This document shows, piece after piece, positions 1 to 2,935 of a stretch of 64,000 nt of DNA. The notes beneath the pieces are model-generated. The model searched no databases and was not told the origin of the DNA. It saw only the letters and a program-made list of their open reading frames with translations. This stretch comes from Chamaelirium japonicum. Lineage: Eukaryota; Streptophyta; Magnoliopsida; Liliales; Melanthiaceae. Made by a program: the position numbers and the translations under genes. How positions within the stretch are numbered: the stretch's first letter is position 1; every line of letters begins with the position of its first letter. The stretch spans positions 33,662,741 to 33,726,740 of the forward strand of contig OX393557.1 of NCBI GenBank assembly GCA_947650365.1, given 5' to 3'.

Positions 1-297
1 AATCAATACATTCTAAAACGTATAGAATCAAATGTACTCTGTAATTTAACGGTTAAAATAAACGGTCGATAATGCTTTTTAGATTTGATGCACCTAAAGG
101 GTTTAGAATGTGCTGATTTTTTATGGATGTGCTATCTAAGGGAAGATGATCATCCTATGGTGTTTGACGCCCTAGAGATTTTAGTATTTGCTAATTTTTG
201 GATATGGTATCAATGACAAGACAAATTTTTGATGATGTGTGTCTAACCATTCGGGTGTAGCAAGGACGCTACACTCGGGTCTAGGAAACATTTAACC
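1..297. repeat. (TA)n-bracketed palindrome unit A, cut by window edge
   Basis: Carries the family motifs (ACGGTCGATAATGC, TTTAGAATGTGCTGATTT, GATGATCATCC). It ends just before the (TA)n tract at 298. Its left end is outside the window. Confidence 0.65.
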
Positions 298-401
298 ATA
301 TATATATATATATATATATATATATATATATATATATATATATATATATATATATATAGAGAGAGAGAGAGAGAGAGAGAGAGAGAGAGAGAGAGAGAGA
401 G
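298..401. repeat. (TA)n then (GA)n compound microsatellite
   Basis: About 30 TA units (298-358) run straight into about 21 GA units (359-401). Confidence 0.97.
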
Positions 402-799
402 GGCTGTTACGTTGAGTTGTAAGCTGCAGTAGGAGAAAATGAGCTGCGAGTATTTTGACCCCCCTAGAAGTTTTGGAATTTGATGAAATTTGGTGAAAGT
501 GTTGTCTAGGGTAAGATGATCATCCTCACCAATTTTCATCAAATTCCAAAACTTCTAGGGGGGTCAAATGGTCAAAGTAAAATCTGTAGATTTTAACGGT
601 GACTGCGGATGACAGATTTTGCTTCGACCATTTGACCCCCCTAGAAGTTTTGGAATTTGATGAAAATTGGTGAGGATGATCATATTATCCTAGACAACAC
701 CCTTACCAAATTTCATCAAGTTCTAAAACTCCTAGGGGGGTCAAAATACCCTCAACCCACTTTCTAAACCGGCAGCTCACAGCTCATTGTGCATTCATT
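402..799. repeat. (TA)n-bracketed palindrome unit B, nested fourfold inverted repeat
   Basis: GACCCCCCTAGAAGTTTTGG occurs at about 459 and 637, and its complement at about 548 and (diverged) 727. Each half (about 449-570 and 628-750) is a palindrome, and the halves are palindromic to each other around position 600. The ends read GAGCTGCGAG and CAGCTCACAGCTC. Confidence 0.82.
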
Positions 800-830
800 T
801 CTCTCTCTCTATATATATATATATATATAT
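800..830. repeat. (CT)n(AT)n microsatellite
   Basis: Five CT units followed by ten AT units, between palindrome units B and C. Confidence 0.95.
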
Positions 831-1205
831 GGGGGAGGGATACTTTTATTTATGGAATCTTATGCAATTACACCGCCTTTTACCTACCCTAGATGGTTCA
901 GAATTTTATGAAACTTGGTGGGGATGCTATCTATGGCAAGTTGATCATCCTCACCAAAAATCATCAAATTCTATAATCTTTAGGGGCATCAAATGTGTTA
1001 TTCAAATTAACGGTTAAAATGAACGGTCGATAAAGCTTCTAACATTTGATGCCCCTAGAGGTTATAGAACTTGATTTTTTGTGAGGATGATCAACTTGCT
1101 ATAGATAGCATTCCCACCAAGTTTCATCAAATTTTGAAACCTCTAGGATAGGTAAAAGGTGGTGTGTAATTGCATAAGTAACCATTCCATAAGTAAGAGT
1201 ATCCC
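831..1205. repeat. (TA)n-bracketed palindrome unit C with clear terminal inverted repeats
   Basis: Starts near GGGATACTTTTATTTATGGA and ends near CCATAAGTAAGAGTATCCC. The whole 375 bp folds as one imperfect hairpin, centred near 1020 at ACGGTTAAAATGAACGGTCG. (AT)n abuts both sides. Confidence 0.82.
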
Positions 1206-1245
1206 TATATATATATATATATATATATATATATATATATATATA
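1206..1245. repeat. (AT)n microsatellite
   Basis: About 20 AT units between units C and D. Confidence 0.96.
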
Positions 1246-1344
1246 GGGGCATGCTATGCTGCGGCATGCGGTAAGTGCGGCACCGCACCGCAGTCGTCTG
1301 ATGCACGCGCTGCACGCAGCGGTGCGATGCCGCACTATAGCATT
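1246..1344. repeat. Small GC-rich hairpin between microsatellites (unit D)
   Basis: GCTATGCTGCGGCATGCGG pairs with CGATGCCGCACTATAGC near the right end. At about 100 bp it is shorter and unrelated in sequence to units B, C, E and F, but occupies the same kind of slot. Confidence 0.6.
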
Positions 1345-1404
1345 TCTCTCTGTCTTTCTCTCTCTCTCTCTCTCTCTATATATATATATATATATATATA
1401 TATA
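1345..1404. repeat. (CT)n(AT)n microsatellite
   Basis: CT-rich tract (1345-1376) running into 14 AT units (1377-1404). Confidence 0.94.
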
Positions 1405-2445
1405 GGCTGGTGGCTAAGAGACACTAGTACGGGGACACGGATACGATACGACACGGGTAGGCCGACACGGCAAATCCTAAAAAAAGAGGACACGGGTACG
1501 ACGGGGACACGGCAAAATAAATTAATATTTTTTATTTATATTTTATGTGTGTTCATAATTCATATATATTTCTATAACCGAAAAAATCTCATAGGAAACA
1601 ATTAAAATGAAAATTTAATGCATACTGAATCGCAACCATTAGTTACACCTAGCCCGATTGGTGAATCACATACAACCCTAGATGACATGGAAAAGAACGG
1701 TTGTGTTTCAGTTTTGGATTCAACCTATCTGGAAACTCAGAGAATCAGATAGGTTAAAGCCAAAACTGAATCGTAACCGTCCGTTACAACCAGCCTGACA
1801 AGTGAATTATACTCAGATCCAAATGACATGCAAAAGAACGGCTACGATTCAGTTTTGGCTTCAACCTATCTAATCCTCTAAGGCAGCTTGTGACCGGACC
1901 CTATATCGAACAACCCGTCAACCCGTCGTGTCCGGTGCATGTCCGGCGAGTGTCCGACAGTGTCCGGCTCCCGGAAGCACGTGGGACACGGCAGTTGCCT
2001 GTCCGACGAGTGTCCAGCGAGTGTCGGTGTCCGACACGGGTACGGGAGACCTGGGGAAGTATCCGTGCTTCCTAGGCTGGTGGGTTACTTTGACGAAATG
2101 GGCAGCGACCCATTTGACACTCCTAAGAATCTTAGAATGTGCTGATTTTTTGTGAGCATAAGCACTTTACCTTAGATAGCACACCCACAAAAAATCAGCA
2201 CATTCTAAAACTTTTAGGGGTATCAAATGTTATATTTCGGATTAACGATTACAACTGACGTTCGATAAAACTTCTAACATTTGATGCCCCTATGAGTCAT
2301 ATAATGTACTGATTTTTTTTGGATGTTCTATCAGATAAGGTGCTTGTGCTCATAAAAAATCAGCATATTCTAAAACTTCTAAGGGCTTCAAATAGGTGGC
2401 TGCCCATTTCGCCAAAATAGATTGGTAGCTCATTTTCCGTTTCTG
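1405..2445. repeat. (TA)n-bracketed palindrome unit E, interrupted by a hAT MITE
   Basis: Without the insertion at 1414-2075 the unit runs from GGCTGGTGGGTTACTTTG to CGCCAAAATAGATTGG. Inner arms: GAAATGGGCAGC near 2095 against GCTGCCCATTTCGCC near 2400. Same motif family as units A, C and F. Confidence 0.75.
1414..2075. mobile_element. hAT MITE, copy 1 of the CTTRGAAGCAC family
   Basis: Perfect 8-bp TSD GCTGGTGG at 1406-1413 and 2076-2083. Left end CTAAGAGACACTAGTACGGG; right end complements CTAGGAAGCACGGATAC. Sub-terminal GTGTCCGACACG-type repeats and an internal AT-rich block match the large hAT element at 25261-28732. No coding potential: a non-autonomous derivative. Confidence 0.88.
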
Positions 2446-2516
2446 ATATATATATATATATATATATATATATATATATATATATATATATATATATATA
2501 TATATATATATATATA
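2446..2516. repeat. (TA)n microsatellite
   Basis: About 35 uninterrupted TA units between units E and F. Confidence 0.97.
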
Positions 2517-2853
2517 CCTATCATCCTAATCGTTGGATTCAGGTTTCAGAATGTGCTGATTTTTTGTAGAGGTGCTATCTATGGTATGTTGATCATCCTC
2601 TAAAAAAATCAGCACATTCTAAAACCTCTAGGGCCATCAAATGTTATAAGCTTTTGCGACCATCAACTTCAACCATTGATTTGAAGAGCACATTTGATGC
2701 ATTTAGAGGTTTTAGAATGCGTTGATTTTTTGTGAGGATGATCAACATACCATAGATAGTAACTCTACAAAAAATCAGCACATTTTGAAACCCAAATCCA
2801 ACGATTAGGATGATGGGTCAAAAAAATATGGGTCAGCGGATCCTGACCCTAAT
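2517..2853. repeat. (TA)n-bracketed palindrome unit F
   Basis: Left arm CATCCTAATCGTTGGATTC and TCAGAATGTGCTGATTTTTT; right arm AAAAAATCAGCACATTTTG and AATCCAACGATTAGGATG. About 22 bp beyond the right arm precede the next (AT)n tract. Confidence 0.82.
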
Positions 2854-2935
2854 AATATATATATATATATATATATATATATATATATATATATATATAT
2901 ATATATATATATATATATATATATATATGTATATA
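2854..2935. repeat. (AT)n microsatellite
   Basis: About 40 AT units with one GT interruption near the right edge; closes the palindrome array. Confidence 0.97.

Follow-up and report, generated by a model that had tools for sequence, protein, structure and literature searches.

A probable array of non-autonomous Mutator-like MITEs in (TA)n microsatellites of Chamaelirium japonicum, and what the TA phase at element ends may retain of their insertion

Introduction

It is already known that MITEs may form arrays in (TA)n microsatellites; such arrays, TA targeting, TSDs of 9-10 bp outside TA and MULE partners are already published. In guayule, rice, sorghum and citrus, the SaTar elements were described as Mutator-like MITEs found serially and non-nested in (TA)n, and the rice Micron was classed as rSaTar2 in the same paper (PMC5907723). 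Since TSDs are invisible inside microsatellites, the SaTar paper left open the choice between cut-and-paste and recombination, a question that becomes testable from sequence via phase parity.

The window analysed here is a 64-kb stretch (C9:33662741-33726740) of a genome searched over 1.52 Gb in 3253 contigs. Its first 2935 nt very probably represent an array of non-autonomous Mutator-like (MULE) MITEs derived from successive insertions into (TA)n. A sequence-only reading of this region had taken the serial (TA)n arrangement to be undescribed; its array interpretation is largely right, but the arrangement is not new, since non-nested arrays were already reported in PMC5907723 and PMC8449440. 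What is added here is a mark of TSD parity that is retained in TA-borne copies and can reveal how they landed.

Organization of the array

Within positions 1-2935 of the window, six (TA)n tracts are set between mostly palindromic units. The features are as follows, none with an assigned strand:

Unit A, right part: 1-297; shared core and a terminal arm like that of the GGGGGCGGGGAGCCTGCACCCGAGG family (J), a likeness judged by eye
(TA)n tract 1: 298-358; followed by (GA)n up to 401
Unit C: 402-809; palindrome with termini GGCTGTTACG.. and GAGAGAAATG..
(TA)n tract 2: 810-830
Unit D: 831-1205; palindrome with a GGGGAGGGATACTCTTACT-type terminus, TA phase opposite at the two ends
(TA)n tract 3: 1206-1245
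Hairpin G: 1246-1376; small GC-rich palindrome, GGGGCATGCTATGCTGCGGC.., with (TC)n at the right end
(TA)n tract 4: 1377-1404
Unit E: 1405-2445; made up of 1405-1413 and 2084-2445, with K and its 8-bp duplication between the two parts
Element K: 1414-2075; nested MITE of apparent hAT type, 662 nt, with the 8-bp TSD GCTGGTGG at 1406-1413 and 2076-2083
(TA)n tract 5: 2446-2516
Unit F: 2517-2854; palindrome, right terminus GGGTCAGGATCCGCTGACCC in inward reading, left terminus deleted
(TA)n tract 6: 2855-2935

The record upstream of window position 1 consists of N, so that unit A is incomplete and only a putative palindrome. Beyond the array, the sole (TA)n tract of at least 20 nt in the 64 kb lies at 37063-37122. 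Inverted arms were found in units C (413-587/612-786, 87% complementary), D (870-963/1072-1165, 90%), E (2086-2192/2313-2419, 76%) and F (2516-2644/2690-2818, 89%). The corresponding minus-strand self-matches, in which the TA and GA tracts are counted, extend over 388-810 for unit C (E 1e-112), 810-1227 for D (E 3e-108), 2086-2419 for E (E 2e-61) and 2446-2920 for F (E 7e-117). Additionally, the fold computed for unit F reached -124.8 kcal/mol, whereas shuffled sequences averaged -31.0 (z -23.5) and none of 100 equalled it. A core half-module of ~110-130 nt, itself partly palindromic, is common to units A, C, D, E and F, whose terminal arms differ despite this common core, which agrees with the earlier description of the larger units as diverged relatives with shared motifs.

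The alternation of palindromes and one GC-rich hairpin with TA repeats, as first read, stands with its six tracts, except that 1414-2075 is a separate element and unit A is incomplete. Likewise, the coincidence of unit edges with microsatellite edges has exceptions at some ends. Unit F is shorter than other copies by ~30-45 nt at its left terminus, and its left edge is therefore a deletion breakpoint and no transposon end, while (GA)n or (TC)n lies between the element end and TA at both ends of unit C and at the right end of hairpin G.

The possibility that 1414-2075 is a further TA-bounded palindrome was ruled out by its own 8-bp TSD and its dispersed copies. An 8-bp duplication flanks six other copies of element K (L002, L004-L008), with one mismatch in two cases (by eye), and the copy at L003 sits in TA, where the TSD is uninformative. 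Judged on these sequence features, K is of hAT type and stands outside the TA-targeting set; located inside unit E, it is the only nested element in the window.

Genome-wide copies and TA adjacency

The best 40 of 3615 candidates were scored for unit F, with 39 non-window copies 89-93% identical, and the best 40 of 4709 for unit C, with non-window copies 92-94% identical. TA tracts of at least five repeats were present on both sides at 29/29 non-window loci of unit C, a number in which one locus found on two contigs is counted twice (L052 and L058). For unit F they occurred on both sides at 16/29 loci, on one side at 11/29 and on none at 2/29. Element K served as control (both sides 0/7, one side 2/7, none 5/7), and random 400-nt intervals had TA on both sides in 0/20000 cases over the rest of the window and in 291/11600 inside the same F and C loci. 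The median length of the flanking TA tracts was 57.5 nt at F copies and 66.5 nt at C copies. These figures support the earlier proposal that the units are MITEs similar to Micron, with (TA)n as their target. The F and C loci comprise the highest-scoring copies rather than a random sample, a bias of which the following pattern counts are free.

The F-type terminus GGGTCAGGATCNGNTGACCC has 3107 exact matches genome-wide, and its reversed control has 0. It directly follows TATATATA in 1333 and ATATATAT in 1436 of these matches, at least (TA)4 adjoins 2769/3107 (89.1%) of these F-type termini, and G or C is found at position -4 in 52.

It was also verified that the elements are frequently joined to one another. 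At least one TA-joined palindromic neighbour was present at 19/28 F copies and 23/28 C copies (L036 and L058 omitted), against 2/7 K copies, and five TA-joined elements were found inside 2 kb at L077. Among 327 tracts examined, strict motifs left 388 of the 654 sides without a label, and different families lay on the two sides in 41 of the 48 tracts where both sides could be named. This labelling, which counts L052 and L058 apart, was used only for the mixed-family joins and the GA specificity given below. That (TA)n tracts remain between successive insertions, as the sequence-only reading had supposed, was likewise supported, the units of the array being separated by six of them. Inverted F-type termini 3.3 kb apart (C1:37787253-37790601) were considered as the ends of one larger element, a candidate that was ruled out: each terminus belongs to its own TA-bounded MITE, and the interval holds further sequence, including a third TA-bounded element.

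TSDs and TA phase of F-type elements

TSDs were sought in 14 of the 52 termini with G or C at -4, picked for the least TA-like flanks. Two of these copies have a perfect 9-bp TSD in unique sequence (L100, AGCTGCCAG; L102, AGGACGAAT), and one, located in (CA)n, is of odd phase (L110). At three others, the second end was not found within reach (L099, L103, L108). The remaining eight yielded no TSD within 7-11 bp when one mismatch was allowed, and five of these eight have TA directly at the right side (L098, L101, L107, L109, L111). Additionally, the flanks of the copy at L010, ATACATATA and AAACATATA, are equal at 8/9 bases (by eye). The sequence-only reading had named, as evidence against its own proposal, an invariable short TSD with no relation to TA. 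Such a TSD is found only in part: F-type elements do have a 9-bp TSD, but in most copies it is made up of TA repeats.

Inside microsatellites, the length of the TSD can be approached through phase. The premise is that TA tracts change length mainly by two, so that the base adjoining the terminus (A or T, read inward) is kept; opposite bases at the two ends then denote an odd TSD and equal bases an even one. A literature search at the level of abstracts found no phase-parity analysis of this kind. Among the matches listed (100 after ATATATAT and 91 after TATATATA, all on C1 below 83.9 Mb), F-type inverted pairs 150-450 nt apart were of opposite phase in 43 cases and of the same phase in 2 (p 6e-11). 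The raw count at the extracted loci, in which pairs with altered termini were kept, gave 22 opposite and 6 same, the latter including three in which the first G is changed to T and one with an inserted base. The two ends could be told apart in 16 opposite-phase F-type copies, and the GG-type end was T-phase in 9 of these and A-phase in the other 7. When phase was read by anchors within the terminus, odd to even ratios were 26:4 for F, 10:1 for D, 11:0 for J and 8:0 for H, 3:3 for N and 1:3 for S; I (2:0), Q (1:0) and X (2:1), with one to three copies each, are too few to be read. A first count over all segments, with families mixed, had given 18 opposite and 3 same for F-type, 50 and 34 for non-F segments without GA, and 17 and 64 for those with GA. 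The locus-based phase counts omit L009, L044, L035 and L036, which overlap other loci, and L058.

The 9-bp TSD and the odd phase of F-type elements do not agree with the 2-bp TA duplication of Tc1/mariner (Stowaway) elements. Moreover, the opposite phase of 43/45 pairs, together with the occurrence of both registers relative to element orientation, speaks for 9-bp cut-and-paste rather than for the recombination model put forward in the SaTar paper. The register could also be swapped by in-place inversion between two TA tracts, an event that would need to be common.

Unit C, hairpin G and the GA tracts

Like the F-type elements, unit C and hairpin G lie between TA tracts, though they mostly lack the odd-TSD signature. 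By the anchor measure, phase was equal in 26/32 and different in 6/32 copies of C, and equal in 21/36 and different in 15/36 copies of G, and the edges were A on both sides in 28/32 C copies and 28/36 G copies. GA of at least 8 nt beside TA was counted at the labelled ends. It was rare at F (0/42), J (0/14), I (0/10), Q (0/4), G-a (1/31), D (1/26), N (1/11), E (1/5) and H (3/18), and common at C-a (21/41), C-b (29/34), G-b (12/14), O (6/8) and R (5/8). Because GA is specific to particular ends, the tract looks element-borne, which suggests that it is carried by certain termini and expanded there, rather than taken from the target.

MULE partner with the F-type terminus

In a PF10551 profile search, the best 150 of 1214 candidates were scored, and 1 of these 150 matches lay within 60 kb of any of the 178 listed element positions, at a distance of 5 kb. 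At this locus (L074, L075), a stop-to-stop open frame of 756 residues has MULE (E 7e-31), FAR1 (E 9e-20), ZSWIM RNaseH-like (E 5e-8) and SWIM (E 2e-6) domains. The right end of the MULE, GGGTCGGGATCGGCTGACCCAGCAGAAG in inward reading, directly adjoins a 118-nt TA tract with an F-like MITE beyond it. At the left end, this copy is truncated and retains the inner but not the outer portion of its inverted repeat. FAR1-related host genes carry the same FAR1, MULE and SWIM domains, and for this reason a single such frame would be no proof of a transposon; the transposon reading comes mostly from seven TA-bounded inverted pairs. These were obtained with the terminal 500 nt of the MULE as query (132 candidates, best 40 scored). 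Among the matches listed and compared by eye, seven inverted pairs of 7.6-8.7 kb enclose a PF10551 match:

E1: C1:13387622-13395264, encloses a PF10551 match
E2: C1:13447121-13454865, encloses a PF10551 match
E3: C24:1339153-1347749, encloses a PF10551 match
E4: C220:300923-309623, encloses a PF10551 match
E5: C171:94293-102827, encloses a PF10551 match
E6: C7:32102525-32111071, encloses a PF10551 match
E7: C1:18923367-18932069, encloses a PF10551 match
E8 (C11) and E9 (C4): inverted pairs with no PF10551 match among those listed
E10 (C6) and E11 (C7): sampled at one end only

It was verified that (TA)n lies at 20/20 sampled ends of these 11 elements, two bases away in the case of E9L. GGGTCGG begins 17 of the 20 ends, 15 of which are exactly GGGTCGGGATCGGCTGACCC, with one change in these 20 bases at E8R and E11L; E5L is one base short, and E9L and E9R begin at GTCGGG. 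Where both ends are readable (n=8), phase is opposite in E1, E3, E4, E5, E6, E7 and E8 and equal in E2, and both ends of E9 are altered. The end on the 5' side of the transposase is A-phase in E1, E3 and E6 and T-phase in E4, E5 and E7. Altogether, the F-type family combines TA adjacency across the genome, 9-bp TSDs outside TA, the phase of an odd TSD and TA-sited MULEs that share its terminus.

Origin of the array

Three other explanations were weighed. A single ancestral unit of palindrome plus TA, multiplied by segmental or tandem duplication, would account for the core common to units A, C, D, E and F, but this is extremely improbable, because the terminal arms of neighbours differ, C and F copies are spread over many contigs, and 41 of the 48 fully named tracts (327 examined) join two different families; the earlier view of repeated independent insertion instead of one duplication is upheld by the differing arms and the dispersed copies. 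Homologous recombination, whereby elements form circles in which microsatellite filler joins their two ends and then enter existing microsatellites by recombination, was offered as speculative in the SaTar paper, in which the flanking microsatellites are described as diverse and often inconsistent with TSDs (PMC5907723). The (GA)n beside some ends and the mostly equal phase of C and G would also fit it. However, F-type elements occur in both registers relative to their intrinsic orientation (9 and 7), as do the transposase-5' ends of the MULEs (A-phase in E1, E3, E6; T-phase in E4, E5, E7), and carried TA filler would need re-randomising, yet the odd relation is kept in 43/45 listed pairs. Considering also the 9-bp TSDs outside TA, recombination is very unlikely. 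The GA part of the SaTar authors' argument weakens in this genome, since (GA)n is end-specific (F 0/42, C-b 29/34, G-b 12/14) and looks element-borne.

For unit C and hairpin G only, another transposase with an even-length duplication, such as Tc1/mariner (TA) or a 10-bp MULE, is a possibility to be held tentatively and on balance doubted. The A edges on both sides (28/32 C, 28/36 G) are what a TA duplication predicts, and 10-bp TSDs were reported in guayule (PMC5907723), but GA next to TA makes the A/A edge of C nearly automatic, and the anchor measure for G is split 21 to 15. This route is inapplicable to F, D, J and H, where odd phase prevails (26:4, 10:1, 11:0 and 8:0).

Successive MULE-mediated insertion thus remains the preferred reading of the array. 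A MULE transposase (FAR1, MULE, SWIM) supplied by elements with the same terminus would act in trans and make a staggered cut within a TA repeat, giving a 9-bp duplication that consists of TA. Slippage would later lengthen the TA to the left and right, providing tracts that a further MITE, frequently from a different family, could enter, so that units would come to be stacked end to end. Units A, D and E presumably arose by the same route as the F-type; odd phase was obtained for D-type and J-type copies. More generally, we consider it somewhat probable that the TA phase at element ends is a durable fossil of TSD-length parity, unerased by two-base slippage, and that genome-wide it records 9-bp cut-and-paste insertion of TA-targeting MULEs in either register and sets apart unit C and hairpin G, whose GA is end-specific, as a second class inserted by even-length duplication or another route.

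Comparison with known systems

The phase-parity test is usable in any genome with such elements, and the MULE copies supply a concrete candidate pair of transposase and terminus to assay. By description, the present elements resemble SaTars (PMC5907723) in being short TIR elements between (TA)n, in their non-nested multi-family arrays, in the presence of fused elements and in MULEs with similar TIRs at TA tracts. They differ in the TSD, which is 9 bp here and 10 bp in guayule (PMC5907723), in that the phase test here supports cut-and-paste for the F-type, and in their end-specific GA tracts. The likeness to Micron of rice, a MITE in (TA)n, is also one of description.

MuTAnT/AutoMuTAnT of Medicago (PMC4486113) shares modular fold-back MITEs, TA targets, a 9-nt TSD in non-TA copies, a mudrA/Jittery-like partner and a G run in the terminus. 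However, the terminus is GGGTCAGGATC here and GGGGTTTGCTAGAACA in MuTAnT, 218 MuTAnT copies were reported there (PMC4486113) against 3107 exact termini of one family in the present genome, and mixed-family arrays are prominent here. Finally, Ac-mMITE of pineapple is described as ~74% TA-flanked, with 46.1% in non-nested clusters and a 9/10-bp TSD outside TA, all of which resemble the present case; the autonomous partner is given as not found in that report (PMC8449440), whereas here a MULE with the same terminus was found.

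Modular structure of the MITE units

The mostly palindromic MITE units A, C, D, E and F, set between (TA)n tracts (window 1-2854), have a single core in common, while their terminal arms differ by family. This combination of a common core and differing arms is a modular exchange, for which serial insertion alone is insufficient as an explanation.

Actual and possible targets of insertion

A lone (TA)n tract of 60 nt is found at window 37063-37122, and no strong palindrome adjoining it was seen in the self-comparison of the window; it is possible that this tract represents a target still unoccupied. 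Additionally, outside the window, a (CA)n repeat holds an F-type copy (C11:64131204-64131684) whose two ends lie in opposite repeat phase, as expected from an odd-length TSD. From this copy, it may be that F-type targeting includes other repeats beyond TA.

Other features in the window

Domain, repeat and sequence comparison searches detected the following features, including further copies of element K, the hAT-type MITE nested in unit E:
24303-24993, copy of element K, 77% identity
25280-25486, copy of element K, 81% identity
26992-27531, DUF659 domain (E 1e-29) in a minus-strand open frame
41788-42502, tandem duplication, 359-nt unit, 97% matches
59661-61001, SCAPER N-terminal domain (E 1e-14) in a minus-strand open frame

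DUF659 is a domain frequent in hAT transposons, and the SCAPER-domain frame is probably part of a host gene.

A chimeric terminus and a segment resembling fused elements

At locus L032, the terminus at 1495-1514 (GGGGAGGGATCCGCTGACCC) starts like family D and is F-like in its remainder, and its sequence looks as if two elements had recombined inside the terminus. At another locus, a TA-bounded segment (L021:802-1457) opens with the terminus of one family (GGGTCGGGATCC) and closes with that of another (GAGGGCTGTTAC), thereby resembling, in carrying the termini of two families, the fused elements published for guayule.
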